In this document: piece by piece, positions 34,685 to 51,768 of the stretch
Position numbering within the stretch: position 1 is the stretch's first letter
How the letters are laid out: each line of letters begins with the position of its first letter
Origin: an uncultured Bacteroidota bacterium
GTDB taxonomy: Bacteria > Bacteroidota > Bacteroidia > Bacteroidales > VadinHA17
Direction: 5' to 3'
NCBI GenBank assembly: GCA_903824785.1
Contig: CAIJYD010000040.1
Coordinates: 1 to 64,000, forward strand
DNA length: 64,000 bases
Translations under genes and position numbers: made by a program
The notes under the pieces: model-generated
What the model was told of the DNA's origin: nothing
What the model saw: the letters and a program-made list of their open reading frames with translations, nothing else
The model's database searches: none

Positions 34685-35116
34685 TTATAGTTTATATGCC
34701 TGTCTGGCTAATAACTTCCAGTTGCCCTTTTGATTCTGCCATACCTGCAGAATACCTATTCTCAGTTTCCCGGGAGTTCCGTTACTACTGGTTTCAGCAT
34801 TAAAGATATGACGGACAACAGCAGTTTTATCTGAAATTTTAATGGTTTGGCCTTCAAGATCAATTTTCAGATAAACGAGAGGTTTACCACTTACCACTTC
34901 ATCAATAAATTCAGTTTTATTCTGAACTTTCCCGCTTGAATGGCCATAGGAAAGCAGTTCTGCGGTCATATTATCAAGAATATTCTTATCAGCATTAATA
35001 AATCCTTTAATAAGGTTTTCAACAGCTGATGCGACCTCTTTCTCTTTGGTTGTCTGGCTCCTGGAGGATAACGATAAGCCAAACAGGAAAACGATTAATA
35101 TAAAGTATTTTTTCAT
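34685..35116 (-). CDS. Exported NTF2-like (SnoaL/DUF4440-type) small protein
   Basis: 143 aa from the ATG at 35116; ten extra upstream codons would spoil the signal peptide. A clear signal MKKYFILIVFLFGLSLSSRSQ is followed by a single cone-shaped domain: VENLIKGFINADKNILDN, LLSYGHSSGKVQNKTEF and ILQVWQNQKGNWKLLARQAY at the end, the DUF4440/SnoaL pattern. It lies 20 bases after enolase paralogue E1, as the last gene of the locus. Such domains bind or isomerise small molecules, so it may act on the dehydration product in the periplasm; no catalytic residue can be assigned. Confidence 0.8.
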   Translation of the reverse strand: MKKYFILIVFLFGLSLSSRSQTTKEKEVASAVENLIKGFINADKNILDNMTAELLSYGHSSGKVQNKTEFIDEVVSGKPLVYLKIDLEGQTIKISDKTAVVRHIFNAETSSNGTPGKLRIGILQVWQNQKGNWKLLARQAYKL

Positions 35117-35136
35117 CTGAATATTATTATTGATTA

Positions 35137-36624
35137 TTAACTCCAAAGTCTGTCATGTGAACTCTTCTGATCCCACTCAGGGGTAGGCAGGAAGTAACCA
35201 TTAGCTCTTGGACTGAGGTGTTGTTTAATTACCTCCTCGTTAAGGTCAATTCCGAGACCCGGAGAATCGAGTGGGACATTTGCGAACCCTTTGGTTATCA
35301 TCGGTTGGCTACCGGTCATTTTAACAAGACTTTCCCACCAGGTAAGATCAACAGAATGGTGTTCCAGTGCCAGGAAATTTTGTGTTGCAGCTGCACAATG
35401 AACATTAGCCATGAATGAGATCGGTGTTCCTGCCTGATGCATAGCCATTGCAATACCATGTTCCTCAGCATAATCACCAATTCTCTTGGTTTCCAGAAGA
35501 CCTCCGGAAGTAGCAAGGTCGGGGTGAACAATATCAACTGCTCTTGCATCTATCAGCGGTTTGAATCCACTGAGAAGGTAAATATCCTCCCCGGTCAGCA
35601 TTGGCGTCTCCAGACTGTCTGACAGAGTTTTCCACTGGTCAGTATATTCCCATGAAACAATATCCTCCATCCATGCAAGTCTGTATTTTTCAATGGCTTT
35701 ACCCAGACGGATTCCATTATTCAGATCAAAATGTCCATAATGGTCAGTACAAATTGGTATTTCATAACCAACGTGTCCGCGAACATCTTCTACAATTCGT
35801 GCCAGTTCTGCAAGCCCTTTATCGGTGATCTGAACCTGTGTGAAAGGATGTTTTGTATTTCCATAAGACATATAACTATTCAGATTATACTGGCCTGTTG
35901 CTCCGTCCCAGAATTTACTGTTTACAAGAGTACCCGGGATACTTTTAAGTTCGTTTATTGAGAGATCCATTTTGAGCCATGTATATCCCTGATCTTCAAC
36001 GCGATATTTGATTTTAGCTATCTGCTCCTCCTCTGATTTTCCTTCAGGAGTATCGGCATAGAGCCTTATCTTATCACGATACCTTCCTCCCAGGAGTTGC
36101 CAGGCTGGTACTCCGTAAGCCTTACCTGTCAGATCCCATAGTGCCATCTCAACACCACATACTCCACCACCCTGGCGACCATTGAACCCGAATTGCTTGA
36201 TTATTTTGAAGATCATCTCAACATTACAGGGATTCAATCCAAGCAGGCGGCTTTTCAGCATAAGCGCATACCTCGGGTCAGCACCATCCCTTACTTCTCC
36301 AAGACCATAAATACCCTGATTTGTGTCAATTCTGATCATAGCTGTACCACCCAGGACATTTGTTAATGCGACACGTAAATCAGTAATTTTCAAGTCAGAA
36401 GGAGCCGAGGACCTCTGTACCTTTGAAGTTGTCTGCGCAATAGTGTCCTCCATTGACAGATGCATTAACCCACCCAAAGCGATTCCTCCAAGAGCGGCTC
36501 TCTTCAAAAAGCTGCGGCGGTCATTTGAAGTTGATGGATTGTCAATTTCTTTCTTTATGGCTTCAGCTTCTGCCGATTCCATCTTCCGGTTCTGTTCAGT
36601 TATTTGCTGTATAATACTTTTCAT
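35137..36624 (-). CDS. Enolase-superfamily dehydratase-like protein E1 (MR/MLE type), Tat-exported
   Basis: 495 aa. Tat signal after a 37-residue polar tail: DRRSFLKRAALGG (~36-48). Capping domain from ~80; barrel with KMDLS (~218, second-strand Lys), metal ligands in CTDHYGHF (Asp), WMEDIVSW (Glu) and TGEDIYL (Glu), and the seventh-strand His in MAMHQAG. The end (FLPTPEWDQ) is typical of sugar-acid dehydratases of the mandelate-racemase group. Family reaction: Mg-dependent abstraction of a proton next to a carboxylate, often dehydrating aldonic or uronic acids. Substrate unknown. Last enolase gene of the block E4-E3-E2-E1. Confidence 0.87.
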   Translation of the reverse strand: MKSIIQQITEQNRKMESAEAEAIKKEIDNPSTSNDRRSFLKRAALGGIALGGLMHLSMEDTIAQTTSKVQRSSAPSDLKITDLRVALTNVLGGTAMIRIDTNQGIYGLGEVRDGADPRYALMLKSRLLGLNPCNVEMIFKIIKQFGFNGRQGGGVCGVEMALWDLTGKAYGVPAWQLLGGRYRDKIRLYADTPEGKSEEEQIAKIKYRVEDQGYTWLKMDLSINELKSIPGTLVNSKFWDGATGQYNLNSYMSYGNTKHPFTQVQITDKGLAELARIVEDVRGHVGYEIPICTDHYGHFDLNNGIRLGKAIEKYRLAWMEDIVSWEYTDQWKTLSDSLETPMLTGEDIYLLSGFKPLIDARAVDIVHPDLATSGGLLETKRIGDYAEEHGIAMAMHQAGTPISFMANVHCAAATQNFLALEHHSVDLTWWESLVKMTGSQPMITKGFANVPLDSPGLGIDLNEEVIKQHLSPRANGYFLPTPEWDQKSSHDRLWS

Positions 36625-36740
36625 TGGTGAAATATTAGTTATTTATTAGAATTGTTATTGACTCGTGAACAACATACTTTCTCTCAAAAGGGACGTACAC
36701 AATTTTGCTTTAATTTCAAGTCCCGGACTCTCTCAACCTA

Positions 36741-37979
36741 TTAAGGTCTTATAATTGTCCCATCTCTTTTACGGACCGTCCAGCCAGGGGCTTTGTTGTC
36801 AATCGGATATTTTGCTGCTTCTTTTTCATTTATATCCACACCATGTCCGGGAACTTCATTCACATACATATAGCCGTTTTTCATGGTGGGACATCCCGGG
36901 AATACTTCACGTGTTTTATCTGAAAAAATGACTGATTCCTGAATCCCGAAATTCCAGCATGCAAGATCCATATGGGCCTGGGCAGAATGCCCGACAGGAG
37001 ATGTATCTCCCGGTCCATGCCAGGCAGTTTTTACATTAAACCATTCACCCAATCGGGCAATTTTCATTGCAGGAGTTATTCCTCCGATCTGTGATACATG
37101 GACCCTGATATAATCAAAATAATGATTCATCATCGGCTCAACAAATTCATTGATATTATTAAATAGTTCGCCCATGGCAAAAGGGACAGTTGTACTCTCC
37201 CTGAGCTGTTTCCACCAGCTTCTGTTTTCTGGCGAAAGAGGGTCTTCAATGTTAAACGGCCTGTATTGTTCAAGGTGTCTGCACAGGTTTATCACATCCA
37301 TAGGCTGGCAACGCTCATGTATATCATGCATCAGTTCAATCTCTTCCCCGCATTTTTTCCTGACCAGATCAAACATTTCAGGTACGGCCTTCAAATAGGC
37401 CTTATCGTCCATGAAAGTATCGGAGGGCATACCAAAACCAGCCTCCTTAAAATCCGGATTACTACCGAGTGTACCTACGCCTCCATAACCTCCCTTTTGA
37501 AAATTCATAAGGGAAGAACCGCCTTGCTGAATCCTTACATGCCGATATCCCTGTTCCATGAATTTCTGTACACTTTCTGCAACAGCTTCCGGTGTCGGAC
37601 CACTTGCATGGCCGTAACAGTCAACTGCAAAACGGCATTTACCTCCTAACAGCTGATATAAAGGCATATTTGCTTTTTTTGCTTTAATATCCCATAAAGC
37701 TTCATCCAGACCACTTAATGCATTGTTTAAAACCGGGCCGTTTCTCCAGTAAGAACTGACATAGAACGCATGCCATAAATCTTCAATATTGTCAGCATCG
37801 CGGCCAATACAAAAATCGGGCATATACTTATTAATGGCAGTTACGACAACCTCCGCCCTCTGAGTGAAGGAGGCGCAGCCGATCCCATATAAACCAGGAA
37901 CATCAGTCTCTATTTTGACCACAACAAGATTTAAACCCTCCGGAGCAGTGCCAATAGCTTTTACATTTTTGATTTTCAA
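36741..37979 (-). CDS. Enolase-superfamily protein E2, mannonate dehydratase (ManD/RspA) type, cytosolic
   Basis: 412 aa, a usual ManD/RspA length. TTG start: KIKNVKAIGTAPEG is the normal family N-terminus and an in-frame TAA lies five codons upstream, so there is no signal peptide, unlike the other seven. ManD landmarks: VRIQQGG (Arg), HDIHERCQP (metal Asp and catalytic His), IEDPLSPEN (Glu), AMGELFNN (Glu), WHGPGDTSPVG (His), and the C-terminus WTVRKRDGTIIRP. ManD enzymes turn D-mannonate (some also D-gluconate) into 2-keto-3-deoxygluconate. Probably the cytoplasmic member of the pathway. Confidence 0.88.
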   Translation of the reverse strand: MKIKNVKAIGTAPEGLNLVVVKIETDVPGLYGIGCASFTQRAEVVVTAINKYMPDFCIGRDADNIEDLWHAFYVSSYWRNGPVLNNALSGLDEALWDIKAKKANMPLYQLLGGKCRFAVDCYGHASGPTPEAVAESVQKFMEQGYRHVRIQQGGSSLMNFQKGGYGGVGTLGSNPDFKEAGFGMPSDTFMDDKAYLKAVPEMFDLVRKKCGEEIELMHDIHERCQPMDVINLCRHLEQYRPFNIEDPLSPENRSWWKQLRESTTVPFAMGELFNNINEFVEPMMNHYFDYIRVHVSQIGGITPAMKIARLGEWFNVKTAWHGPGDTSPVGHSAQAHMDLACWNFGIQESVIFSDKTREVFPGCPTMKNGYMYVNEVPGHGVDINEKEAAKYPIDNKAPGWTVRKRDGTIIRP

Positions 37980-38190: not shown

Positions 38191-39531
38191 TTAATCGAAG
38201 AATTTTTTGTCCTCTTCAGCTAAATACTGTTTTGCCGCCTTAACATTAAAAACTACACCCAGACCTGGTCTGTCAGAAACTTCATAGAATCCGTCTTTTA
38301 CCAAAGGATCGGGTATTCCTTCCACGATCTCATACCACCATTCCGGATTTGGAATACAACACTCAAAAGCTATATAGTTCTCGGGCATTGTTGCTCCCAC
38401 CTGAGCCTGTGCAGCATTCCCGATAACTCCGTCGAAAATGCCGTGAGGAGCAATCTGCAGTCCATGAATATCGGCATACTCACCTATCCATTTCAACTCG
38501 GCTATACCCCCAACGTCCTCAGGATCAGGACCCAGAATTCGCACTGCATGTTTGTCAATCAGTTCACGGAAATTCTGTCTCAGATATATTTGTTCTCCTG
38601 TATGAATAGGGGTTGTTGTGCTTCGTGTTAGTTCACAATAGTCGTCAGCCAATACATAGGGAGTGTAGTCGCCTGTAAGCATATCTTCCAGCCACATCAG
38701 GTTAAAAGGTTCCATGGCATTGGCCACACGAATTGCATCTGATAACATAAATCCCGGACCCATATCAAGAGCCAGACCAATACCATCTCCTAATCCTTCC
38801 TTCAGGGCTGCAACACAATCAATCATATATTTTAAGCCATTTTCGGTTAATGGTCCGCGAAAATTTGAAGTTGTTGTTCCGTATGTGAAATTAGGTACAA
38901 CTCTTGACATTCCGCCGTGAAAACCAACCGCTACTTTGAAGATACTGAATCCATATTTTGAGGCTTTCAGATTCGCACCGTATTCAATATACTCTTTCGG
39001 CTCGGTCCCGGGTTTGCGTGACGAATAGTTTGTATTATAACAGCGAACTTTGTCGCGGATTTTACCACCAAGAAGCTTATATACGGGAACACCGGCAGCT
39101 TTTCCTGCAATGTCCCAGAGAGCTATCTCAATAGCGCTGACTGCGGCCCCCCATGGTTTGAAACTTCCCATGCGGCGGATTTTCATCATGCACCGCTCTA
39201 CATTTGTCGGATCTTCTCCAATCAGGTAATCTTTATAAAATAATACAAAAGGCTTGAGATAAGGTTTTGCTGATTCTGCCTGGCCAAAGCCATCGATTCC
39301 TGCATCAGTTGTAATACGTACCACAGGGCTTTTGCCCATAATGGCACATCTAATATCTGTAATTTTGATACCGGGTTTTGTTGATGCAATCTGAAATCCG
39401 GGAGGCATAAATGCAGGAGCTGCGACAACTCCTGCAGAGGCCAATAAAGATTGTTTCATAAATGTACGGCGGTTGAGCGAATTCCCTTTCCCGTTAAAGG
39501 TAGAAATGATTGTTTCTTTTTTATTTTTCAT
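38191..39531 (-). CDS. Enolase-superfamily protein E3 (MR type), Tat-exported
   Basis: 446 aa. Tat signal NRRTFMKQSLLASAG (~21-35). Barrel: FKVAVGFHGG (second-strand Lys), ALDMGPGF (Asp), WLEDMLTGDYTPY (Glu), HTGEQIYLRQNF (Glu), GPDPEDVGGIAE (Asp of the His-Asp pair) and APHGIFDG (His). Very similar to E4 and E5, so the three arose by tandem duplication. E3 is shorter than E4 in the loop before LTENGLKYMID. The reaction is expected to be acid-sugar dehydration or epimerisation; the substrate is unknown. Confidence 0.87.
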   Translation of the reverse strand: MKNKKETIISTFNGKGNSLNRRTFMKQSLLASAGVVAAPAFMPPGFQIASTKPGIKITDIRCAIMGKSPVVRITTDAGIDGFGQAESAKPYLKPFVLFYKDYLIGEDPTNVERCMMKIRRMGSFKPWGAAVSAIEIALWDIAGKAAGVPVYKLLGGKIRDKVRCYNTNYSSRKPGTEPKEYIEYGANLKASKYGFSIFKVAVGFHGGMSRVVPNFTYGTTTSNFRGPLTENGLKYMIDCVAALKEGLGDGIGLALDMGPGFMLSDAIRVANAMEPFNLMWLEDMLTGDYTPYVLADDYCELTRSTTTPIHTGEQIYLRQNFRELIDKHAVRILGPDPEDVGGIAELKWIGEYADIHGLQIAPHGIFDGVIGNAAQAQVGATMPENYIAFECCIPNPEWWYEIVEGIPDPLVKDGFYEVSDRPGLGVVFNVKAAKQYLAEEDKKFFD

Positions 39532-39611
39532 AGGTTAATAAGTTAAATTTTGATTATTTATCTTCCTTGCTTATATATCGCTTTTGATATCATCTGAGAT
39601 AACAAACATCA

Positions 39612-41021
39612 TCAATCGAAGAACTTTTTATCTTCTTCAGCCAGATACTGTTTTGCTGCTTTTACATTAAACTCCACACCCAGACCCGGTCTGTCCCAAA
39701 CTTCTATAAGGCTGTCTTTTACAACAGGATCCGGCAGACCATCAATTATATCGTACCACCAGGAAGGATTACCGATTGTATATTCAAAAGCGATGAAATT
39801 CTCAGGCATAGTTGAGCATACCTGAACCTGGGCAGCCAGACCAATCAATCCATCAAATATTCCATGAGGAGCCATTTGAATGCTATGCATATCGGCATAT
39901 TCGGCTATCCATTTTAATTCAGCCATTCCTCCAACGTCAGCCACATCAGGGCCAATGATACGGACAGCTTGTTTCTCAATAAGTTCGCGGAAATTTTGTC
40001 TTAGATAAATTTGTTCGCCGGTGTGAATTGGAGTTGTGGTGCTTCTTGTCAGTTCAAGATAGTTGTCAGCCATCACATAAGGAGTATAATCGCCTGTGAG
40101 CATATCTTCCAGCCACATTAAATTATAAGGTTCCAGTGCTCTGGCAAGGCGAATGGCATCCGATAACATAAACCCCGGGCCGATATCTAAAGCCAGCCCT
40201 ACACTATCTCCCAGGACAGTCTTCATTGCTTCAACACATTCTATATGGTATTTTAATCCCTGTTCCGTTAAGGTGCCGCGATATGGATGACTAACGTCCT
40301 TTGGACTGCCTGGTTGAGAAACAGTACCATATGCACCGGGTCGTGCTGAAGCCGGGGTAATATTTCCATAGTAGAAATTCGGAGTACCTGAAATTCTCCC
40401 CCCATGAAAACCTAATGCTATCTTTATAATCGAAAAACCTTCAGCAGCAGCCTTCATTTGGGTAACTGATTCAGCATAATCCTTCGGTTGGAGACCGGGA
40501 ACAGCATAACGGAGAACAGCACCATTATATACACGAACCTGATCGCGGATCTTTCCCCCGAGCAGTTTATGCACAGGCAATCCAGCTACTTTCCCTGCAA
40601 TATCCCATAGCGCCATTTCAATAGAACTGACTGCACTTCCATAGGGCTTAAAACTACCCATACGACGGATTTTCATCATGCATCGCTCAACATGAGTTGG
40701 ATCCTCACCAATAAGGTAGTCTTTGTAAAACAGCACATAAGGTTTCAGAAAAGGCTTTGAAGTTTCTGCCTGTCCATAACCACTTATTCCGGCATCTGTG
40801 GTAATACGGATTACCGCGCTTCCCCCTATAATTGCACATTTAAGGTCAGTGATTTTTATCTTTGCTTGTGAGACTGCTTTAGATTGAAAGGCTTCTGCAG
40901 CAGATACGTTTTCTGCTGAAACATCTGTTCCTAAAAGACCAATTCCTAAACCGCCTATAGAGGCTTTTTTAATAAAATCCCTTCGGTCGGTTGGCACTTT
41001 ACTACCTTCATTTTTAATCAT
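39612..41021 (-). CDS. Enolase-superfamily protein E4 (MR type), Tat-exported
   Basis: 469 aa. Tat signal DRRDFIKKASIGGLGIG (~13-29). Same active-site set as E3 and E5: IIKIALGFHGG, ALDIGPGF, WLEDMLTGDY, HTGEQIYLRQ, IGPDVADVGG, APHGIFDGLIG. It has an extra ~25-residue loop (ASARPGAYGTVSQPGSPKDV) after the second strand that E3 lacks and E5 has only in part; this loop could alter substrate choice. First gene after the terminator at 41118-41153, so it probably has its own promoter in 41022-41117, though I see no consensus box there. Confidence 0.87.
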   Translation of the reverse strand: MIKNEGSKVPTDRRDFIKKASIGGLGIGLLGTDVSAENVSAAEAFQSKAVSQAKIKITDLKCAIIGGSAVIRITTDAGISGYGQAETSKPFLKPYVLFYKDYLIGEDPTHVERCMMKIRRMGSFKPYGSAVSSIEMALWDIAGKVAGLPVHKLLGGKIRDQVRVYNGAVLRYAVPGLQPKDYAESVTQMKAAAEGFSIIKIALGFHGGRISGTPNFYYGNITPASARPGAYGTVSQPGSPKDVSHPYRGTLTEQGLKYHIECVEAMKTVLGDSVGLALDIGPGFMLSDAIRLARALEPYNLMWLEDMLTGDYTPYVMADNYLELTRSTTTPIHTGEQIYLRQNFRELIEKQAVRIIGPDVADVGGMAELKWIAEYADMHSIQMAPHGIFDGLIGLAAQVQVCSTMPENFIAFEYTIGNPSWWYDIIDGLPDPVVKDSLIEVWDRPGLGVEFNVKAAKQYLAEEDKKFFD

Positions 41022-41276: not shown

Positions 41277-42659
41277 TTATTCAAAGAACTTTTTGTCCTC
41301 TTCAGCAAGATATTGTTTTGCTGCCTTTGTATCTATTTCAATTCCAAGTCCGGGAGCATCCCAGACATCAATAAGCCCGTTTTTCACAATAGGATTAGGA
41401 AGCCCGGAAACAATATCATACCACCAGGCCGGATTTGCACTGCAATATTCAAAAGCAATATAATTTTCCGGCATAGCAGCTCCAGCCATAACCTGGGCAG
41501 CAACGCCTATCAATCCATCGAAAGTGCCATGAGGTGCAAACTGAATGCTATGAAGGTCAGCATATTCAGAGACCCACTTCATCTCAGCAATCCCTCCCAT
41601 ATCTTCGGGGTCAGGACCAAGTACCCTTACTGCATGTTTTTCAATAAGTTCCCGGAAATTCTGACGAAGGTAAATCTGTTCTCCTGTATGAATAGGAGTA
41701 ATGGTACTTCTTGTTAATTCACAATAATCATCGGCCATAACATAAGGAGTATAATCGCCGGTAAGCATATCTTCGCACCACATAAGGTTATATGGTTCGA
41801 GAGCATTTGCAAGTCTGATAGCATCCGACAATATCATTCCCGGACCACAATCAAGAGCAAGGCCAATTCCGTCACCCAGCCCTTCCTTCATGGCTGCAAC
41901 ACGTTCTATTATTACTTTTAAGCCCCTTTCAGTCAGCGGGCCGCGGCGGCCAACATCTTTTGGGCTGGCAGATTTGCTGGTATTCACATATGAGAAATCA
42001 GGAACGGTAGAGTTATAACCACCATGAAACCCTACTGCCTGTTTGACGATAGTAAAGCCCTGAGGTAAAGCCTTGATTTTTGCTCCCCATTCAATAAAAT
42101 CCTTATATTCAGTACCGGTTCTCTCTACCCGTACGCTTCCGTTGTAACAACGAACCTGATCGCGGATCTTTCCACCCAGAAGCTTATAAACCGGTATACC
42201 TGCTGCCTTTCCTGCAATGTCCCAGAGAGCGATTTCAATTGCGCTGACTGCTGCTCCCCATGGTTTGAAACTTCCCATCCGGCGGATTTTCATCATAACA
42301 CGTTCGACGTTAGTGGGATCTTCGCCAATGAGATAGTCTTTGTAAAAAAGAACAAAAGGTTTAAGATAGGGTTTTGACGTTTCAGCCTGACCATAGCCAC
42401 TTATTCCCTGATCGGTGGTAATACGAATAACAGGGCTTCCTCCCATTATGGCACATCTGAGGTCTGTAATTTTTATTGGGGGTTTTGGTGCAGGTTTGTT
42501 CTGAACAGGAGCTGGTTGTGAAACCGCCTCAGCTGAGGCATCGGTTCCTAATAGTCCAATCCCTAATCCTCCGATAGCCGCTTTTTTAATAAAATCCCTG
42601 CGGTCAGAAGGGCTATCACTCTTCTCTTTTTTAATTGAATCTAATGGTTTTTTCATCAT
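41277..42659 (-). CDS. Enolase-superfamily protein E5 (MR type), Tat-exported
   Basis: 460 aa. Tat signal DRRDFIKKAAIGGLGIG (~20-36), almost identical to that of E4. Active-site motifs IVKQAVGFHGG, ALDCGPGM, WCEDMLTGDY, HTGEQIYLRQ, LGPDPEDMGG and APHGTFDGLIG. Start MMKKPLDS: two adjacent ATGs, the second equally possible. Last of block E7-E6-E5, followed by a terminator. Substrate unknown; changes from E4 in strand-end residues (Asp-Cys versus Asp-Ile, Trp-Cys versus Trp-Leu) suggest related but not equal activity. Confidence 0.87.
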   Translation of the reverse strand: MMKKPLDSIKKEKSDSPSDRRDFIKKAAIGGLGIGLLGTDASAEAVSQPAPVQNKPAPKPPIKITDLRCAIMGGSPVIRITTDQGISGYGQAETSKPYLKPFVLFYKDYLIGEDPTNVERVMMKIRRMGSFKPWGAAVSAIEIALWDIAGKAAGIPVYKLLGGKIRDQVRCYNGSVRVERTGTEYKDFIEWGAKIKALPQGFTIVKQAVGFHGGYNSTVPDFSYVNTSKSASPKDVGRRGPLTERGLKVIIERVAAMKEGLGDGIGLALDCGPGMILSDAIRLANALEPYNLMWCEDMLTGDYTPYVMADDYCELTRSTITPIHTGEQIYLRQNFRELIEKHAVRVLGPDPEDMGGIAEMKWVSEYADLHSIQFAPHGTFDGLIGVAAQVMAGAAMPENYIAFEYCSANPAWWYDIVSGLPNPIVKNGLIDVWDAPGLGIEIDTKAAKQYLAEEDKKFFE

Positions 42660-42713: not shown

Positions 42714-43946
42714 TTATCCCCACCATGGTTCATCCTTTGGAAGATGGAGCTTAAGAAAAGATTCATCTATTGTGAGGCCTATTCCGGCCTGATCTGACAC
42801 CTTCAGAGTACCATTCCGTACAACAGGAGCTTCTCCTACTGCCATTTTCTCAATCATCCGGCCTTCGCGCCCCAGCCTGCTTTCAGATCTGTAAAAGTTC
42901 TGTATTGCCATTGAAAGATGAGCTGAAGCATATGTTCTTACAAGAGAGCCTACATTATGAAGTGCAACAGGGGTACGTGTAAGGGCGGCATAATCAGCAA
43001 TTTTCATAACTCCGGTGAATCCTCCGGCGTAAGAAATATCGGGATGCACAAAATCAATATCCTGAGCATCAAGAAAAGGTTTAAACTGCCTGAGCGTCTC
43101 GAGTTTTTCTCCGGTCATAACCGGAACCCTTGTCCCCCGTTTCAAAGCAGCCCATCCGTCTGAATAAGGTACACTTAAAATATCCTCGACAAAGACCATA
43201 TTGAAAGGCTGTACGGTATTTGCCATAGCAATTGCGCTGGGAGTATCGAATTCCCCATGACAATGCAGACCAATTTCAATAGTATCTCCAACGGCTTCCC
43301 TTATATTACCAAAGCCCTGAGAAAGCTTCTTTAGTTCTGCCGATGTGACTGTTGGATGGAAAGGCATTTTAATTGGGAAGGAGGGGCCTATTTTGAACGT
43401 TGTGAATCCCTCCGGCTGCTGGTTAATATACTCTGCCCATTTGCGGCAGGAAGCAGGATCAAGCATGTTCTGGAGCGCATCGCCATGGGAATACATAGGA
43501 CATCCGTCGCGGAACGGACCACCCAATAGTTTATATACCGGCTGATTAAGAATTTTACCGGCGAGGTCCCACAATGCCATATCTATTCCTGAAACAGTAC
43601 CCATAGGAGCCATCAGCGGATGTTGCATAGAAGTCATATTAAAGTAATGACGTTCTATGGAAAGTGGATCTCCTCCGATGATATTGGTAACCTTAATAAT
43701 GTGTTCGAGATGAGCACGGGCTATTTTTGCATTTACACCAGCTTCTCCATACCCTGTTACACCGGCATCCGTTTCAACCTTTATCAGACAGCCATCCGAC
43801 TGAAAATCGAGCTGCATTGCTTTTATTGCCGTGATTTTAACCTGATTTGCAGCCGACGCAGAAGATGCATAATAGTTTGTCATCCAAACTCCTGCAGGGA
43901 TAGCAATAAGCTTTCCTAGAAAATTCCTTCTTGAATAATTAGTCAT
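42714..43946 (-). CDS. Enolase-superfamily protein E6, Tat-exported, unusual first metal ligand
   Basis: 410 aa. Tat-type signal SRRNFLGKLIAIPAGVW (~5-21). More distant from E3-E5, nearer the galactonate-dehydratase group by shape. TFKIGPSF carries the second-strand Lys; FVEDILSVPY (Glu), TGEKLETL (Glu) and ALHNVGS (His) fit. At the first metal position, where the family has Asp (DFHG, or DHYG in E1), this protein reads LHCHGEF, so Asp is replaced by His. It may bind a different metal, have shifted ligands, or be inactive. Cotranscribed with E7 and E5 by spacing (53-54 bases). Confidence 0.83.
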   Translation of the reverse strand: MTNYSRRNFLGKLIAIPAGVWMTNYYASSASAANQVKITAIKAMQLDFQSDGCLIKVETDAGVTGYGEAGVNAKIARAHLEHIIKVTNIIGGDPLSIERHYFNMTSMQHPLMAPMGTVSGIDMALWDLAGKILNQPVYKLLGGPFRDGCPMYSHGDALQNMLDPASCRKWAEYINQQPEGFTTFKIGPSFPIKMPFHPTVTSAELKKLSQGFGNIREAVGDTIEIGLHCHGEFDTPSAIAMANTVQPFNMVFVEDILSVPYSDGWAALKRGTRVPVMTGEKLETLRQFKPFLDAQDIDFVHPDISYAGGFTGVMKIADYAALTRTPVALHNVGSLVRTYASAHLSMAIQNFYRSESRLGREGRMIEKMAVGEAPVVRNGTLKVSDQAGIGLTIDESFLKLHLPKDEPWWG

Positions 43947-43999: not shown

Positions 44000-45364
44000 T
44001 TATGGTCTGATAATAGTGCCATCCCTTTTTCGTACAGTCCATCCGGGGGCATTATTATTTATCGGATACTTGGCAGCCTCTTTTTCATTAATATCAACAC
44101 CAAGGCCGGGAGCTTCATTTACATAGAGATATCCATCTTTATAAGTCGGGCAACCGGGGAAAACAGTTTGTTCTTTTTCCGAGAAAAAGTAACCGCCCTC
44201 CTGAATCCCGAAGTTCCATACAGCCAGATCGATATGAAGATTAGCAGCATGTCCGACAGGGGATACATCTCCAGGTCCGTGCCATGCTGTCTTTACGTTG
44301 AACCACTCTCCTAATCTTGCCACTTTCATTGCAGGCGTAATCCCCCCGATCTGAGAAATATGGATCCGGATATAATCAAAGTAATGATTAACCATTGGCT
44401 CCACAAATTCATTGACGTTATTAAAGAGTTCTCCCATTGCAAACGGGACAGTGGTACTCTCGCGCAGCTGTTTCCACCAGTGAGTGTTTTCCGGAGAAAG
44501 AGGATCTTCAATAAAGAATGGACGGTATTCTTCCACCCTCTTACACATATTAATTACATCAATGGGTTGCGACCGTTCATGAATATCGTGACACAACTCA
44601 ACCTCTTCCCCACAGGCTTTGCGGACAGTTTCAAACAATTTGGGTACTCCGGTTATATAGTCATGTTCGTCCATAAAAAGATCTTTCTCTCCACCAAAAC
44701 CGGCAGTTTTAAAATCGGGTGTTGCCGGAACAGCTCCAATACCTCCATAGCCTCCCAGCTGAATCCTGACATACTTAAATCCCCTATCCATGAATTGCTT
44801 TACATTTGCAGCCACTTCATCATAGGTTTTGCCACCGGCATGAGCATATGCAGCAACAGCAAAACGCGATTTTCCGCCAAGAAGCTGATAAACCGGCATA
44901 TTGGCCCGTTTGCCTTTAATGTCCCATAAAGCCTGATCTAATCCACACAGGGCATTGTTTAATACAGGGCCGTTGCGCCAGTATGAGCTGACATAGAAAG
45001 ACTGCCACATATCTTCTATATTATCAACATCTCTTCCGACACAGAATTCGCTCATATATTTTTCAATAGCTGTTACAACGGTAAAAGCACGCTGGGTGAA
45101 TGTAGCACACCCTAATCCATATAATCCAGGCTCAGTTGTCTCTACTTTTACAACTATTAAGTTGGAACCTGAAGGTGCTGTTGCTATAGCTTTCACACTT
45201 TTAATCTTTATCGGAGCCATTGCTTTGGCATAGCCCGGGGTCTCATACGGAACAGGGTTGGCATGAATGCCATTCAATCCTAAAAATCCGGCAGCAGATC
45301 CCATAGCAGCTGTTTTCATGAAATTCCGCCTGTCACTGGTAAATTTTGTCTCTTCTTTTCTCAT
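44000..45364 (-). CDS. Enolase-superfamily protein E7, ManD/RspA type, Tat-exported
   Basis: 454 aa from the ATG at 45364 (a GTG directly before it is possible). Tat signal DRRNFMKTAAMGSAAGFLG (~11-29). The ManD body follows from IKIKSVKAIATAPSG: VRIQLGGYGG (Arg), HDIHERSQP, IEDPLSPEN, AMGELFNN, WHGPGDVSPVG and the C-terminus WTVRKRDGTIIRP. Close to E2 and E8 through the whole length; the first residues of the body align with the very start of E2, so the Tat tail was added to (or lost from) an otherwise equal enzyme. A small GGGGT/ACCCC inverted repeat (45386-45402) lies just before the start. Confidence 0.88.
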   Translation of the reverse strand: MRKEETKFTSDRRNFMKTAAMGSAAGFLGLNGIHANPVPYETPGYAKAMAPIKIKSVKAIATAPSGSNLIVVKVETTEPGLYGLGCATFTQRAFTVVTAIEKYMSEFCVGRDVDNIEDMWQSFYVSSYWRNGPVLNNALCGLDQALWDIKGKRANMPVYQLLGGKSRFAVAAYAHAGGKTYDEVAANVKQFMDRGFKYVRIQLGGYGGIGAVPATPDFKTAGFGGEKDLFMDEHDYITGVPKLFETVRKACGEEVELCHDIHERSQPIDVINMCKRVEEYRPFFIEDPLSPENTHWWKQLRESTTVPFAMGELFNNVNEFVEPMVNHYFDYIRIHISQIGGITPAMKVARLGEWFNVKTAWHGPGDVSPVGHAANLHIDLAVWNFGIQEGGYFFSEKEQTVFPGCPTYKDGYLYVNEAPGLGVDINEKEAAKYPINNNAPGWTVRKRDGTIIRP

Positions 45365-45526
45365 CACGATATAATTTTTATTTCAGGGGTAAAATGAACC
45401 CCGATTTGTTTGGTTGTAAAATAAATTTATTTGTCTCGGTTATTGTTATCAATCATTTTGGTTTCATAATTAAAAGGATCAATAGTTTTAGCTGACAGGA
45501 TGGTTGACAGATGAATAAATCAGCTG

Positions 45527-45580: not shown

Positions 45581-46966
45581 TTATGGCCTGATGATTGTGC
45601 CGTCCCTTTTACGGACTGTCCAGTTACCTGCATTATTGGAAATTGGATATTTTGCAGCCATCTTTTCGTCGATATCTATTCCCAGACCCGGTAAATCATT
45701 TACGATGATATATCCGTTTTTCTTGGTGCAGCACCCCGGGAACAACTCACGGAGAAAATCTGAAAATACACCTCCGCCTTCCTGCAGCCCGAAATTCCAG
45801 GTAGCTAAGTCCATATGTGCCTGTGCCGAATGGCCTACCGGGGAAACATCACCCGGACCGTGCCATACAGTTTTTACATTGAACCATTCACCTAATCTGG
45901 CAACTTTCATACACGGGGTTATTCCTCCCATCTGTGAAACATGTATACGTATGTAATCAAAATAATGGTTGACCATCGGTTGAAGGAATTCATTTACATT
46001 ATTGAAAAGTTCACCCATTGCAAATGGGACCGTTGTACTTTCGCGAAGCTGTTTCCACCAATGAGTATTTTCAGGAGAGAGAGGATCTTCAATTATAAAG
46101 GGACGATATTCTTCAAGCTTTCTGCACAAATTAATAACATCTATCGGCTGGCATCTTTCGTGTATATCATGCAGCAATTCGATCTCTTCACCGCATTTTT
46201 TTCTCACCCCTTCAAATATTTTTGGTACAGCTCTTAAGTAAGCCTGATCATCCATAAAGCTGTCATTGGGCATTCCAAATCCGGCCTCTTTGAAATCAGG
46301 TTTTGTACCAATAGTTCCAACCCCGCCATAACCACCCAGCTGGATCCTTACATGACGCTGGCCTGATTCCATCTCTTTCAGAACCTTATCAGCAACCTCT
46401 TCGGGCGTTGCAGCACCAACAGAAGTATAAGTATCAACTGCAAAGCGGCATTTGCCACCTAATAGCTGGTAAACAGGCATATTTGCCCGTTTCCCTTTGA
46501 TATCCCAGAGAGCCTGGTCAAGGCCGCTGAGTCCATTATTTAATACAGGTCCATTTCGCCAGTAAGAACTAACGTAAGCAGATTGCCACATATCCTCAAT
46601 ATTATCAGCATCTCTTCCTACACAAAAATCATTGAGGTAACGATCTATTCCGGTAACGACAGCTTCTGCCCGCTGGGTAAAAGTTGCACAACCCAACCCA
46701 TATAATCCGGGCTCTGTTGTTTCAACTTTAACAACAACAAGGTTTGAGCCTCTTCCTTCCGGATTTGATTTAACACCAATAGCTTTAACACTTTTGATCT
46801 TGATGGGAGGTAATCCTGCCGGAGGTTTTTGCAGAGTTCCCTGCGAGTTAGCCTGTGCGGAAGAATAATTTCCCAGACCTCCTGCGAGAAACGCTGCGGA
46901 GCTCAATCCAAAGGTTTTCAGGGCTTGGCGCCGTCCTACATTTAATTTTCCGTTTTTTGATTCCAT
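45581..46966 (-). CDS. Enolase-superfamily protein E8, ManD/RspA type, Tat-exported
   Basis: 461 aa from the ATG at 46966; a GTG six codons upstream is open too, but AAAGAAATT before the ATG is the better initiation region. Tat-like signal GRRQALKTFGLSSAAFLAGG (~11-30), then a Pro-rich linker and the ManD body (IKIKSVKAIGV). Motifs as in E2/E7: VRIQLGGYGG, HDIHERCQP, IEDPLSPEN, AMGELFNN, WHGPGDVSPVG, WTVRKRDGTIIRP. It has an 8-residue insertion (NPEGRGSN region) near the start. It is flanked by terminators on both sides, so it appears to be a one-gene unit directly behind SusD. Confidence 0.88.
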   Translation of the reverse strand: MESKNGKLNVGRRQALKTFGLSSAAFLAGGLGNYSSAQANSQGTLQKPPAGLPPIKIKSVKAIGVKSNPEGRGSNLVVVKVETTEPGLYGLGCATFTQRAEAVVTGIDRYLNDFCVGRDADNIEDMWQSAYVSSYWRNGPVLNNGLSGLDQALWDIKGKRANMPVYQLLGGKCRFAVDTYTSVGAATPEEVADKVLKEMESGQRHVRIQLGGYGGVGTIGTKPDFKEAGFGMPNDSFMDDQAYLRAVPKIFEGVRKKCGEEIELLHDIHERCQPIDVINLCRKLEEYRPFIIEDPLSPENTHWWKQLRESTTVPFAMGELFNNVNEFLQPMVNHYFDYIRIHVSQMGGITPCMKVARLGEWFNVKTVWHGPGDVSPVGHSAQAHMDLATWNFGLQEGGGVFSDFLRELFPGCCTKKNGYIIVNDLPGLGIDIDEKMAAKYPISNNAGNWTVRKRDGTIIRP

Positions 46967-47014
46967 AATTTCTTTATTAATCACATTACAAGTATTTTAT
47001 TACTTGATAAATCC

Positions 47015-47081: not shown

Positions 47082-47096
47082 TTATTTCAGGCAGGA

Positions 47097-48629
47097 TTAC
47101 AGTTTATCCCACCAGACTCTTCCGTTCATTTTAGCATTAGATGCTCCGCCCTGTCTTTCTATTGCAGCATCAAGATTTGATTTATTAGAGACAGACTCTC
47201 TGTCGGGATATACTTGCCGACGTATAAATTCTCCGGGAATTTCAGAAGCTGGGTATGGATTAGGTGAAAGCTGGGGAAAACCGGTACGGCGGAAATTCGA
47301 CCATCCCTCGAATCCATTTGGTATAGAAGTTATCCAGTACTGTTCACCAATCATTTTAAGCTCATTCCCTGCAACAAGCAGATTAGCTGCAACATAGGCA
47401 GTTACAGTACCTGCAGGAATTACGGCTGTGGCACCAAAATCAGCCATCCTCTCAAGATCAGCCTTAATGGCATTTGAATAATTGGTTGCTGCAGTTCCTG
47501 TTGTCCAGCCTTTAACAATAGCTTCAGCTAACAGCAACTGTGTTTGTGAGTAAGTGCAAAACCACTGGGGGGAGGTGTTTGTAAACACAACCTGCCAGTC
47601 GAACTGAGAATAATCGTACAAACTGGCAACACCCTCTGCCGCAAAAGTGGTAGCTATAGTGACATCATTATAACCAAGAGGCATACCCTTTGCTAATGCC
47701 GGATCTTTAGATCTTCTGGCAGCAACCTGCTGAGTGCCATTTAGTGCACCAACAAATCGATGCAGCCAGCTTCCCAAACGCGGGTCATTTGTGGTTTTCA
47801 GTAACCCTACAAAGAATTTATCGGCATAATAATTTGCCTTTTCATTTCCTGAGAACTCAGCTCCAATAGGATTTACATACTCTGGTGTCCGGAGCAGCTT
47901 TGCATTATCAGCATTCGACTGCATTAAACCGCCGGCAACAGCTTTTATTACGTAACTCTTTGCTGTCTCCGGTTCGATCTTTGAAAGTCGCATTGCAGCC
48001 CGCATGAGAAGTGAATAACCAAAACGTTTCCATTTGGTAACATCTCCGCCATAAAGTATTTCACCAGATATTTTAGGTTGAGTGGCATCCAGGGCTGCTG
48101 AAGCTTCATCTAATTCCTTAAGGATATCGGTATAGATGTCTTTCTGAGTATCGTAAACAGGTTTAGTTATCTGTTTAAGATATCCTGTTCCAGCTTCTGT
48201 ATAAGGGATATCACCATAAGTATCTGTCAGGATCATGAAGGTATAAGCTTTCCAGATCCTTGTTGCGTTATACAGATTAGTTCTGAGGGCATCACTTTTT
48301 GTCTGATTAATTATATCGACTGTGGTTACCACAGAAGATGGATAGAAGCTGATCCATGGAAATTCCTGCATGGCTGGTACAAACTGATTATAATTTGCCC
48401 CGGCAAGGCTGGATCCGAACGGACTTGTAAGCCACATTGCGATCTGGAGCTGCTGTACACGTGTTCCCATCTCCATTACATTAATTATAGCCCTGTTCAG
48501 TTTAAAAGCCGGATCAAGGGATATGAAGGAGGTGGTGCTGGTATTTATTTCATCAAAATTTTTATCACAGCTAACAAAGAGGAGTGTTGCAGTCAGTAAT
48601 CCTGTCAAATATTTTTTAATGCTTTTCAT
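47097..48629 (-). CDS. susD: SusD-like outer-membrane nutrient-binding lipoprotein
   Basis: 510 aa from the ATG at 48629; the longer frame would overlap the SusC gene. Lipoprotein signal MKSIKKYLTGLLTATLLFVSC with lipobox LFVSC, so Cys21 is lipidated. The body fits the SusD-like_2 family: LNRAIINVMEMGTR, YKAYTFMILTDTYGDIPYTEA-type TPR region (AYTFMILTDTYGDIPY), AEAIVKGW. It binds substrate at the cell surface and forms the lid of the SusC pore. 37 bases after susC. The substrate is presumably the acidic sugar or glycan treated by E1-E8, but SusD sequences do not tell. Confidence 0.9.
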   Translation of the reverse strand: MKSIKKYLTGLLTATLLFVSCDKNFDEINTSTTSFISLDPAFKLNRAIINVMEMGTRVQQLQIAMWLTSPFGSSLAGANYNQFVPAMQEFPWISFYPSSVVTTVDIINQTKSDALRTNLYNATRIWKAYTFMILTDTYGDIPYTEAGTGYLKQITKPVYDTQKDIYTDILKELDEASAALDATQPKISGEILYGGDVTKWKRFGYSLLMRAAMRLSKIEPETAKSYVIKAVAGGLMQSNADNAKLLRTPEYVNPIGAEFSGNEKANYYADKFFVGLLKTTNDPRLGSWLHRFVGALNGTQQVAARRSKDPALAKGMPLGYNDVTIATTFAAEGVASLYDYSQFDWQVVFTNTSPQWFCTYSQTQLLLAEAIVKGWTTGTAATNYSNAIKADLERMADFGATAVIPAGTVTAYVAANLLVAGNELKMIGEQYWITSIPNGFEGWSNFRRTGFPQLSPNPYPASEIPGEFIRRQVYPDRESVSNKSNLDAAIERQGGASNAKMNGRVWWDKL

Positions 48630-48666
48630 ATTATTTCTTTTTAAAATTATTAAATAATTCAGACAG

Positions 48667-51600
48667 CTAGAATTTAACATTAAGGTTAAATCCAAAGGTT
48701 CTAGTGGAAGGATATGCTGAAACATTCCCGGTGAGACTTGTATCATCGAAGGTAAAGATATTTTCAGGATCCATATTTGACACCCATTTTTTCAGGATGG
48801 CAACATTATTGGAGACAACGCTGAGTTTAAGTCCTTTAATAAATTGTACCTGTGGCAGGAACTTAACAAAATCATAACCCAGAGAGACCTGACGCAATTT
48901 CCAGAAGCCGGCATTTGAAACAAATGGGTCTTCAATACCCTGTCCGGTAAAGTTTTCATAATAAGGCTGAACCTGAGCTTGAGTGGTGTTAACTGATCCA
49001 TCGGCATTCACCCCGTCTCCAATAACATATCCAACATCGCGGCCCGGCAAAGTACCTTTATGCTTTCCATGTCTCCAGTAATCATGATTGGCTCCAAAAT
49101 TACTCACGTAATCTTTACCAAGCTTGAAGTCAACTAAAGCGGACATAATTATTCCTTTGAAATTAAAGGTATTGGTTATACCACCAAACCAAGTGGGAAG
49201 CATACTGCCAACGTTTACACGGGTGCTGCTGCGTACGGCATAGCCGCTGTTTTTATCAAATATTAAATCACCATTTGCATTTTTTGCCTGCATATAGTAG
49301 TAAAGTTGTCCTAACGGCCGGCCAACAATCTGATAAACACTTCCTACGGTTATCACTGTATCTTTATCGCTTAAGCCCAGTTTTAAAACTTCTGAAGTAT
49401 TATAAGAAATATTGGCATTTATGCTCCATGTAAAAGATTTCGTTTCAATAGGAGAAACCTGTATTGAAGTTTCAAACCCCTTGCTTACACTTTCCCCGAC
49501 ATTTATTAGCTGGGCAGAAAAACCGGAAGCTTGAGAGGTTGTTGCTGATACGATCTGATCAGTAGTTTTCTTGCTGTAGACTGAAAAATCGAATCCAATT
49601 TTATTATTGAATAATCTCAGGTCAATTCCTCCTTCAATTTCACCTACTCTTAGCGGGCGAAGATTTGGATTTGCGATTGTGGTGGATGAATAGCCTCCAA
49701 CAGGGACAGATCCGCTTGGTCCTGCGAAAAGATTGGAATTAATAGCATAAAATTGTATATTGGAATAAGCATCAACGTTATCGTCACCTACCTCTGCATA
49801 AGATAATCTCAATTTTCCGAAAGAAATCCAGTCAGGCAGGAAATCAAGTGCATCTGAGAAAATGTAGCTACCGGTAATAGAGGGGTAAAGGATGCTTCGG
49901 TTATCAGGTGAAAGGGTTGAGAACCAGTCATTACGCGCAGTAGCATTCAAAAACAGATAGTTTTTGTACGAGAACTCTGCTGCACCATAAATTGAATTTA
50001 CGGCTCTTTCAGTTAAACTATGTGAAGCAGTTTTCTGACGTCCGTTCATTACTGTATAAAGTCCGGGTTGAATAAAATCCTGTGCACTCTGATTTTCCGC
50101 CTCCATTGACCTGAACATCTGGTTGCCTCCGGCTGTCAGACTGAGGTCGATATCGCCAAAATTATGCTTGGCATTTATGAGAATATCATAATTTCTTTCA
50201 CGGAATTTATTACTGATCCTGTTATAACTGCCATCAACATAACCTGTTGGGGGGGTTGCTGCATCCAGTCTGCCGGTTGGACTATTGTAGTCATGCAGTC
50301 TGGAGTAGAAGTCCTGTGCTGCACGAGCCTGAATATAAATGTTTTTGGACACATTAAACTTTAAAGCTATATTCCCAAGCACCCTGTCCCTGGTATTATT
50401 ATCGAACCTGTTATTCAGCATAAAGTAGGGGTTTACGCGAGGAAGGAATCTGCTCCAGATCAGTTCTTTCCCTGTTATCGGATCCTGGTAATATTGTTGC
50501 ATAAGCGACAAAGGCATCGTATTCGCCATAGTTGCCAAAGTATTGACCTCGGCGCTCTGGTTACCCAGACCAAAGGGGGCATTTTTGTAATATTCGTTTG
50601 AATAATTGACATTACCCGATACATTGATCCATTTGGAGATATTCTGTGTAAATCCCAGAGTGATATTCCTTCTTGTAAAATCGGAATTTTTAAGAATAGC
50701 GGTATTCTTGGTATTTGCTATTGAGAGATCGAAGCCTCCATTTTCACCGCTGTTCGAAAAGCTGATTGTATTTGTAAGGTTTTGTGCCGTCCTGTAGAAT
50801 TGGTTGTAACGTTCTTTGGTTGTTATTGCGACATAAGGGGCTTCTACGTTATCAAACAGTGTCTGTGTCATTCCAGGTTGAATTTTTTCACCGAAGCTCC
50901 ATACTCCTGATGTTGGCCAGGCGAGGGTAGGTCTTATTCCTCTTTCTCCCTGTCCATATTCGTACTGGAAGTCTGTATAATCAACTGCTTTTTCAGAAGT
51001 GTAATTCATATTATAAGTAACACCAAATCCTTTGGTTTCCATTCCTGTTCTTGTGGTAATCATTATTACCCCGTCTTTAGCTCTCGATCCGTAAAGCGCA
51101 GCAGCAGCAGCTCCTTTCAGAACGGTCATAGACTGAACGTCGTCGGGATTAATACTGTTCAAACCATCTCCAAGGTCAGCATTTCCCTCCTGAAACCGTG
51201 TGTTGTCGATGGGAACACCGTTGACTACAAGAAGAGGAAGGTTTGCTCCCTGGAATGCAGAGTTGCCACGGATTCTGATCCTTGTTGATCCTGCCGGACC
51301 GGTACCGAATTGTGTTATGTTTACTCCACTTACTTTTCCCTGTAGAGTCCCCAGGGTGTTTGAAGAACGATTCTCAGTTAATTGAATCTGGTTGACAACG
51401 GCAGTTGCATATCCAAGAGTTTTTGATTCTCTCTTAATACCAAGAGCTGTAACAACAACCTCATCCATCAATAAAGAATTTTCTACCATAGTTACATTAA
51501 CAGTAACCTGAGAGCCAACAGCAACATCCTGTGTTGTGTAGCCTACATAGGAAAGCTGTAATGTTGATTGATTATCAGGAACCTGAATGGAAAATTTACC

Positions 51601-51768
51601 ATCACCATCAGTCGCTGTCCCGATGGTTGTTCCTTTAATAAGCACTGTAACTCCAATCAATGGCTGTTCATGGTTATCGGTAACCCTACCAGTGATTGCT
51701 CTTTGTGCAAGCACAACCTGTAATCCCGCAAACAGCAGGAATACAAGCATCATTGCGATTTTTCTCAT
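48667..51768 (-). CDS. susC: SusC/RagA-type TonB-dependent transporter
   Basis: 1033 aa. Signal peptide ending VVLAQ (residue ~22), then a carboxypeptidase-regulatory-like domain (ITGRVTDNHEQPLIGVTVLI, ~24-100), the DEVVVTALG segment (TonB-box region of the family), plug domain with LQGKVSGVNI, RIRIRGNSAF and VLKGAAAAALYGSRAKDGVI, and a long beta-barrel ending FNLNVKF with the expected terminal Phe. Imports large ligands across the outer membrane with TonB energy. First gene of the minus-strand enolase locus. No sigma/anti-sigma or hybrid two-component gene adjoins it. Confidence 0.95.
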   Translation of the reverse strand: MRKIAMMLVFLLFAGLQVVLAQRAITGRVTDNHEQPLIGVTVLIKGTTIGTATDGDGKFSIQVPDNQSTLQLSYVGYTTQDVAVGSQVTVNVTMVENSLLMDEVVVTALGIKRESKTLGYATAVVNQIQLTENRSSNTLGTLQGKVSGVNITQFGTGPAGSTRIRIRGNSAFQGANLPLLVVNGVPIDNTRFQEGNADLGDGLNSINPDDVQSMTVLKGAAAAALYGSRAKDGVIMITTRTGMETKGFGVTYNMNYTSEKAVDYTDFQYEYGQGERGIRPTLAWPTSGVWSFGEKIQPGMTQTLFDNVEAPYVAITTKERYNQFYRTAQNLTNTISFSNSGENGGFDLSIANTKNTAILKNSDFTRRNITLGFTQNISKWINVSGNVNYSNEYYKNAPFGLGNQSAEVNTLATMANTMPLSLMQQYYQDPITGKELIWSRFLPRVNPYFMLNNRFDNNTRDRVLGNIALKFNVSKNIYIQARAAQDFYSRLHDYNSPTGRLDAATPPTGYVDGSYNRISNKFRERNYDILINAKHNFGDIDLSLTAGGNQMFRSMEAENQSAQDFIQPGLYTVMNGRQKTASHSLTERAVNSIYGAAEFSYKNYLFLNATARNDWFSTLSPDNRSILYPSITGSYIFSDALDFLPDWISFGKLRLSYAEVGDDNVDAYSNIQFYAINSNLFAGPSGSVPVGGYSSTTIANPNLRPLRVGEIEGGIDLRLFNNKIGFDFSVYSKKTTDQIVSATTSQASGFSAQLINVGESVSKGFETSIQVSPIETKSFTWSINANISYNTSEVLKLGLSDKDTVITVGSVYQIVGRPLGQLYYYMQAKNANGDLIFDKNSGYAVRSSTRVNVGSMLPTWFGGITNTFNFKGIIMSALVDFKLGKDYVSNFGANHDYWRHGKHKGTLPGRDVGYVIGDGVNADGSVNTTQAQVQPYYENFTGQGIEDPFVSNAGFWKLRQVSLGYDFVKFLPQVQFIKGLKLSVVSNNVAILKKWVSNMDPENIFTFDDTSLTGNVSAYPSTRTFGFNLNVKF

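Follow-up and report, generated by a model that had tools for sequence, protein, structure and literature searches.

The window, the whole stretch of DNA analysed here, comprises 64,000 nucleotides (positions 1 to 64,000 of contig CAIJYD010000040.1, assembly GCA_903824785.1) from an uncultured Bacteroidota bacterium of the VadinHA17 lineage; in our numbering of genomes (G), contigs (C) and fetched loci (L) it is G000:C40, and its assembly has 4.69 Mb in 135 contigs. On its minus strand lies a run of eleven genes in the order SusC, SusD, E8, E7, E6, E5, E4, E3, E2, E1 and DUF4440 (Table 1), in which eight enolase-superfamily genes stand behind a SusC/SusD pair (SusCD). The original prediction, made from the letters of the sequence, had described this arrangement, and it holds: all eleven genes are within the stated stretch, and all eight enzymes pass the Pfam cut-offs of both PF02746 and PF13378. 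It is the largest set of dehydratase-type genes that we found.

Table 1. Genes of the minus-strand run behind SusCD (ManD, D-mannonate dehydratase; MR, mandelate racemase; RR, twin-arginine; aa, amino acids).
Feature	Position	Strand	Details
SusC/RagA-type TonB-linked outer-membrane transporter, 1033 aa	48667..51768	-	TIGR04056 637.9 bits, cut-off 368.25; Plug and CarbopepD_reg_2 domains
SusD-like lipoprotein	47097..48746	-	PF12771
E8, ManD-type enolase-superfamily protein, RR signal	45581..46984	-	PF02746 and PF13378; ManD model 359.7 bits; RR at residue 18
E7, ManD-type, RR signal	44000..45367	-	PF02746 and PF13378; ManD model 384.6 bits; TAT_signal_seq 20.7, cut-off 16.7
E6, isolated MR-type, RR signal	42714..43946	-	PF02746 and PF13378; His at strand-3 metal-ligand position, usually Asp
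E5, E3-5-type, RR signal	41277..42659	-	PF02746 and PF13378; 87% identity with a G014 gene
E4, E3-5-type, RR signal	39612..41021	-	PF02746 and PF13378; outside tree group of E3 and E5
E3, E3-5-type, RR signal	38191..39531	-	PF02746 and PF13378; long branch in the group of E5
E2, ManD-type, signal-less, TTG start	36741..37979	-	PF02746 and PF13378; ManD model 395.2 bits
E1, RR signal	35137..36624	-	PF02746 and PF13378; TAT_signal_seq 19.6 bits, cut-off 16.7; of the enzyme types, the most frequent neighbour of RraA-like genes
DUF4440 (NTF2-like) small protein, signal-like N-terminus	34685..35146	-	PF14534 43.7 bits; overlaps the end of E1

Intergenic gaps from SusD to E1 measure 53-255 bases, and as called SusC and SusD overlap by 80 bases and E1 and DUF4440 by 10. 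Judged from its sequence, SusD probably begins at an inner ATG near 48629 rather than at 48746, which would give it a lipoprotein-like signal and remove the overlap with SusC. The small gaps and the E1/DUF4440 overlap are compatible with a single transcription unit, short of proof. Scans of the run for promoters (56 sites against 46.0 in shuffled sequence, standard deviation 7.9) and terminators (13 against 14.9, standard deviation 3.2) gave no excess, and a Bacteroidetes-type promoter pattern matched 5 times against 2.7 expected, with no match before SusC. From SusC to DUF4440 the minus strand holds no further open reading frame (ORF) of at least 120 aa besides the array genes; the run is thus without a regulator, glycoside hydrolase or lyase, as had been claimed.

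The window genome has 16 matches to the C-terminal enolase-superfamily domain MR_MLE_C, one of them under the cut-off and two that look like fragments of one broken gene, and eight of the 16 fall within this run. In a survey of 247 Bacteroidota genomes, G000 included, 228 had one to five such matches, six had none and 13, the window genome among them, had more than five (at most 11 candidates were scored per genome, so that G000 shows 11 there). The share of the genome's matches that is gathered here, together with the rarity of more than five per genome, argues that the clustering is not due to chance.

By model score E2, E7 and E8 are ManD-type proteins, a label from which an activity is not assignable, since all three stay under the cut-off of 550 of the ManD equivalog NF043051. 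E3 and E5 are 69% and 72% identical to E4, E1 shares 23-36% with the other seven enzymes and E6 is similarly distant, in agreement with the predicted division into three ManD-type proteins, three close paralogues and two distant ones. Against the galactonate dehydratase model NF010624 (cut-off 311) E7 scores best at 235.9, with E1 and E3-E6 at 153.9-183.5; a 423-aa partner in locus L048, outside the window, passes it with 432.9 bits. Among solved structures, E2 comes nearest to 3tw9, whose title names a gluconate dehydratase, and to 3t6c, which has D-gluconate bound.

The active sites appear largely intact. K200, D279, E305, E336, D359, H386 and E413 (E4 numbering) are invariant in all 27 proteins of an E3-5-type alignment that spans several phyla and includes three rows from the window; their presumed metal and base roles follow established knowledge of the superfamily. 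The acidic ligands expected on strands 3, 4 and 5 and the strand-7 His can be read on alignments in E1, E2, E3, E4, E5, E7 and E8. AlphaFold models of E4 (pLDDT 80.6) and E6 (85.7) matched enolase-superfamily structures at 21-31% and 21-29% identity, respectively, over the best 50 rows. In E6 and two distant relatives (L136:14012-16579) an HCH motif replaces the expected strand-3 Asp, and the three sequences may form a minor subfamily whose metal site is altered. At E <=1e-30, E6 has matches in 3 other genomes of 295 in the order, at 26-32% identity, and two genes of G023, outside that draw, are 31-34% identical to it. In a genome from another family of the order, an MR_MLE gene with an RR signal and 31% identity to E6 (L156:1480-2742) lies opposite a gene that is sulfatase-like by sequence (L156:22-1455).

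A feature that the original prediction had not mentioned is the N-terminus of these enzymes. In seven of the eight, an RR motif precedes a hydrophobic stretch at the N-terminus, as in signals of the twin-arginine translocation (Tat) pathway; E2 is the exception. We scored such signals with a pattern of our own on members of the fetched loci above identity and length thresholds, leaving aside the short loci L001-L046, identical copies and ten E1 loci fetched later. Start codons were assigned by rule, and contig ends clip some rows, so single calls may be wrong. Among Bacteroidota homologues, those of the window included, the signal is present in 20 of 21 E1-type, 12 of 13 ManD-type and 18 of 23 E3-5-type proteins; in other phyla and unranked loci the corresponding counts are 0/21, 0/6 and 4/54. 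The last four comprise all three Acidobacteriota proteins tested (L082, L083, L110) and one of 28 from Pseudomonadota; the Acidobacteriota cases mean that the signal is not confined to Bacteroidota. Read by eye, most UxuA-like partner proteins of Bacteroidota also carry RR stretches and the RraA-like ones carry Sec-like stretches, and the window genome encodes TatC (225.9 bits). These features suggest that the seven RR enzymes are exported by Tat to the periplasm and that E2 is probably cytosolic. Loss of an E2 signal by frameshift was ruled out, as no RR stretch occurs in any of the three frames just upstream.

Members of the array recur, in varying company, well beyond this genome. Scanning the E3-E5 alignment against genome contigs gave 238 places with a relative; the best 80 of these 238 were kept and form 78 loci, and the counts per phylum describe those 78 only. 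Neighbours were counted by tblastn, which replaced an ORF-based count that missed genes in GC-rich loci. E1-type genes occur in 37 of the 78 loci, RraA-like genes in 34, UxuA-like in 17 and ManD-type in 14, and 34 loci have at least two of these four types. A further 35 window genes served as controls: 29 match none of the loci, three match one locus and three match 39-40, and one of the last three is plainly an ATP-binding cassette (ABC) ATPase by sequence. Of the 12 loci from Bacteroidota, 5 have both SusC and SusD, as against none of the 66 others; of the seven Bacteroidota loci that have no SusCD, three lie on contigs that start inside the enzyme array. The closest arrays (L049 and L052) have SusC, SusD, three E3-5-type genes, one ManD-type gene and another MR_MLE gene, followed by UxuA, RraA and E1 in no fixed order. 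L051 and G014:C281 agree in length and gene content and are apparently one contig. At least 7 of the 11 SusD matches outside the window genome, the five best included, lie on contigs with an E4 match, among the matches listed. E7-like matches of 62-89% identity, some of them partial, occur in 13 of 35 same-genus genomes, and E1-type genes in 15 of 395 Bacteroidota genomes, the window's included.

The surroundings of E1 point to a possible pathway. The window genome itself has a second E1 with RraA-like and UxuA-like genes on contig C93, and on C97 a row of genes for a BASS symporter, a PfkB kinase of the 2-keto-3-deoxygluconate (KDG) kinase kind, a 2-keto-3-deoxy-6-phosphogluconate (KDPG) aldolase and a protein that is YhcH-like by sequence. 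The kinase and aldolase lie at C97:1943-3736, and the aldolase scores 347.9 against the NF005499 cut-off of 275. Also on C97, the operon with the KDG-kinase-like gene continues into genes named by sequence as ribokinase-, nucleoside-hydrolase- and ADP-ribosylglycohydrolase-like (L147:545-9065). G008 has the order RraA-E1-MFS-UxuA, whose major facilitator superfamily (MFS) gene has a D-galactonate transporter as its best model, under cut-off; KDG-kinase-like and KDPG aldolase genes come after it at a distance of no more than 4 kb, and upstream lie GH9, GH3 and lactonase genes.

We also fetched E1 loci from 10 of the 14 other E1-bearing genomes (G446, G546, G607 and G661 were left out; in L188 the E1 position was taken from a separate E1 search). 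RraA-like genes lie beside E1 in nine of these ten and BASS genes in five. One of them, L193, reads SusC-SusD-UxuA-UxuA-RraA-E1-BASS-E1-PQQ dehydrogenase-SMP30 lactonase-KDG-kinase-like-KDPG aldolase, with SusC clipped by the end of the stretch and with a cytochrome domain on the pyrroloquinoline quinone (PQQ) dehydrogenase. In this one relative, enzymes with RR signals share a locus with the PQQ dehydrogenase, lactonase, BASS, KDG-kinase-like and KDPG aldolase genes. This gene set suggests a reaction order of oxidation, lactone opening, dehydration, import, phosphorylation and aldol cleavage. L126 and L135 have DUF4440-like genes at most a few kb away from a gene of the E1 type. Across the genus and the order, genes for membrane-anchored proteins with a common N-terminal pattern also recur in the neighbourhood of E1-type genes (L129:10823-12553, L130, L133, L135, L142); the one example scanned is a DUF362 protein.

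Taken together, these observations support a model in which the periplasm would receive sugar acids, lactones of such acids or small acidic saccharides through SusCD, and in which the Tat-exported enolase-superfamily enzymes would there dehydrate aldonic acids to 2-keto-3-deoxy acids. The BASS-family symporter would then pass these keto acids inward, or alternatively pass acids for dehydration by the cytosolic E2, and the KDG kinase and KDPG aldolase encoded on another contig would finish the breakdown. We think this account of the window is probably correct, with considerable room for doubt. The acid-sugar substrates and dehydratase chemistry of the original prediction likewise gain support from context: E2 lies near 3tw9 and 3t6c, and homologues of the array stand beside mannonate- and galactonate-dehydratase-family genes, sugar ABC importers, and KDG-kinase-like and KDPG aldolase genes. 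A wider proposal, which we hold more tentatively and would not quite call probable, is that Bacteroidota have relocated to the periplasm the dehydration part of a sugar-acid pathway of the Entner-Doudoroff type, and in some members oxidation and lactone opening as well; behind SusCD, enolase-superfamily, UxuA-like and RraA-like enzymes would act after export, and a BASS protein would import 2-keto-3-deoxy acids.

Several findings weigh against periplasmic dehydration followed by keto-acid import. In the window, none of the enzymes reaches the NCBIfam equivalog cut-off of any named sugar-acid dehydratase, and for this reason we assign no substrate. The NCBIfam Tat signal model exceeds its cut-off in E1 and E7 alone among the seven RR proteins, the Pfam TAT model lists E7 alone, under its cut-off, and the signal-less E2 has its TTG start where solved ManD relatives begin aligning. 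Downstream, the C97 kinase reaches 205.8 against the cut-off of 440 in its best KDG-kinase equivalog, the BASS protein is under its equivalog cut-off, the UxuA-like protein of the window genome scores 114.2 against 191 for mannonate dehydratase, and the kinase and aldolase genes are on a contig other than that of the array. The kinase-aldolase pair (KdgK-KdgA) appears in one of the ten fetched E1 loci, and neither the PQQ protein of L193 nor its second UxuA-like protein, as called, begins with an evident signal. No PQQ dehydrogenase stands out convincingly in the window genome: the PF01011 cut-off is exceeded in two frames (28.2 and 46.2 bits) by summed short repeats alone, with single stretches below 20 bits, and both were rejected. 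Periplasmic oxidation of sugars is therefore unsupported in this genome, and as it does have two clear SMP30-type genes, an acid or a lactone is the likelier import in the window organism.

The distribution of the genes adds to these reservations. Of the 78 E3-5 loci, 29 have none of the E1, RraA, UxuA and ManD types, several of them being short contigs. Conservation in relatives, by which the original prediction had proposed to judge itself, is found for the core with SusCD, in the five Bacteroidota loci mentioned above, and fails for the eight-gene form, which we saw in the window only. E3-5-type genes are themselves rare: at 69% identity or more they occur in 2 of 35 same-genus genomes, among the matches listed, plus a fragment in G008, and at E <=1e-100 the window genome is the sole one of 395 from Bacteroidota to have them. 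Finally, in a rhizosphere study of Rhizobium leguminosarum, mandelate-racemase-family genes of a comparable cluster were barely induced, 1.4- to 1.5-fold for two of them (PMC3333776).

It is possible, if unlikely, that the pathway runs instead through hexaric or uronic acids, with the enolase-type enzymes making 2-keto-3-deoxy-hexarates on which the RraA-like partner then acts. The RraA-like gene is the most constant companion of E1, by the counts given above for the ten Bacteroidota loci and the 78 E3-5 loci, and there is a precedent among RraA-like proteins in FlDet, from an alginate user, which is reported to be a 2-keto-3-deoxy-hexarate dehydratase/decarboxylase (PMC8563752). The KDG-kinase-like, KDPG aldolase and mannonate/galactonate-dehydratase-family partners, by contrast, point to aldonic acids.

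A somewhat less likely alternative is that the eight genes are mostly redundant tandem copies that mean little beyond dosage. The roughly 70% identity of E3 and E5 to E4, the close grouping of E2 with E8 and the differing gene number among species fit such a history, whereas the trees do not. In the E3-5 tree a well-supported group of 12 rows unites E3 and E5 with genes from G014, G030, Cyclobacteriaceae and Saprospiraceae, with E3 on a long branch whose placement is unsure; E4 falls outside, its nearest genes being from metagenome-assembled genomes (L047, L048) and forming no supported group with it. This position of E4, relative to a group that takes in other families, implies that the copies split before the genus arose or arrived separately. 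In a quick ManD-type tree, E7 goes with G014, and E8 and E2 go with G030 and G008. Such separate groups, each shared with other species, suggest that the window collects copies that other fetched same-genus species keep singly, and the catalytic residues are kept save the one in E6.

The enolase superfamily also includes epimerase, racemase and cycloisomerase reactions, which leaves room for enzymes acting on non-sugar carboxylates such as plant aromatic acids. In the rhizosphere study, the rhizobial genes RL3858 and RL3864-66 were indeed interpreted as lignin-type enzymes (PMC3333776). We consider this reading improbable for the window, where the structure nearest to E2 bears the title gluconate dehydratase and where the neighbours of relatives are genes for sugar importers, sugar kinases, KDPG aldolase, mannonate-dehydratase-family proteins and lactonases.

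Equally improbable, in our judgement, is that the RR stretches are non-working Tat signals in an ordinary cytosolic sugar-acid pathway with a SusCD importer: export is a prediction, E2 has no signal, the NCBIfam model lists two of the seven and homologues of most other phyla do without, but several families of Bacteroidota retain an RR motif with a hydrophobic stretch in three enzyme types, a feature that is nearly absent elsewhere, partner proteins carry RR or Sec-like stretches, and TatC is present.

To our knowledge, characterised sugar-acid dehydratases of the enolase superfamily are cytosolic. If periplasmic dehydration is correct, some Bacteroidota begin the breakdown of oxidised sugars outside the cytosol and import a keto acid, rather than a sugar, at the inner membrane, which would amount to a central-type carbon pathway shifted between compartments. 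The model also offers candidate functions for a widespread uncharacterised module, including its probable rhizobial counterpart with an importer reported to matter for rhizosphere fitness (PMC3333776), and the module offers clear enzymes for assay.

How far does the array resemble systems already known? Like polysaccharide utilisation loci, it has a SusC/SusD pair at the head of a one-strand run; unlike them, it follows the pair with eight enolase-superfamily enzymes and has, among its eleven genes, no regulator and none of the adjacent glycoside hydrolases or lyases that such loci carry. Some relatives of the array do have GH9, GH3 or GH28 genes nearby, unlike the window. E2 aligns end to end with the ManD-subgroup structures 3tw9, 3t6c and 4ihc (443.9-449.4 bits), whereas the window's ManD-type proteins, a predicted type, differ from ManD in falling under its equivalog cut-off and, for E7 and E8, in carrying RR signals.

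Related gene sets occur in other phyla. Operons of Chloroflexota and of Myxococcota or unranked Deltaproteobacteria (L057, L071, L088, L090, L091, L099) combine E1 and E3-5 types with RraA-like and UxuA-like genes, and those of Chloroflexota share the ManD type with the window as well. L057 and L071 have all three enzyme types with UxuA, RraA, aldo/keto reductase, short-chain dehydrogenase/reductase and MFS genes, and L088 has six of these families within 6.9 kb. These operons differ from the window in having no RR signal in the members tested and no SusCD; in L057 and L071 an MFS gene would provide the importer. An epimerase-family gene of L071 was considered as a uronate dehydrogenase, without support: its best solved match is a UDP-glucose 4-epimerase entry, and a mutated uronate dehydrogenase comes third (E 4.8e-11). 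SAR202 offers a further likeness, with many enolase-superfamily paralogues and proposed parallel routes for sugars and sugar acids; it differs in that a Chloroflexota genome there holds 80 paralogues, the proposed route is non-phosphorylative and the parts of the paper seen describe no SusCD-linked array (PMC10444878).

One of the closest described systems is rhizobial. In Rhizobium plasmid loci L150 and L151, E1 and E3-5-type genes adjoin a carbohydrate ABC importer, a GntR gene, further MR_MLE genes and RraA. On the Ti plasmid pTiAF3.44 of Agrobacterium larrymoorei (L154), an E3-5-type gene lies with genes for mannonate dehydratase, a sugar ABC importer, Gfo/Idh, idonate dehydrogenase and gluconokinase, which may form an island for the use of sugar acids. 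In R. leguminosarum 3841, the ABC genes RL3860-62, flanked by the mandelate-racemase-family genes RL3858 and RL3864-66, were reported to be induced in the three rhizospheres studied, and an RL3860 mutant was less competitive, with an index of 0.58 (PMC3333776). Its carbohydrate importer with four racemase-family genes has the layout of L150/L151, a match of gene layout only; in L150/L151 two of the racemase-family genes are of the E1 and E3-5 types and RraA is present. The rhizobial cluster has an ABC importer, not SusCD, and the Pseudomonadota proteins tested mostly have no RR signal (E1-type 0/15, E3-5-type 1/28), unlike those of Bacteroidota. The original claim that nothing of this composition had been described was therefore too strong, given the related sets of Rhizobium, Chloroflexota and Myxococcota and the published rhizobial cluster whose layout, as described, is the same (PMC3333776). 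For SusCD loci with exported enolase-superfamily arrays in particular, no description appeared among the matches listed from open-access PubMed Central, which leaves out most subscription journals.

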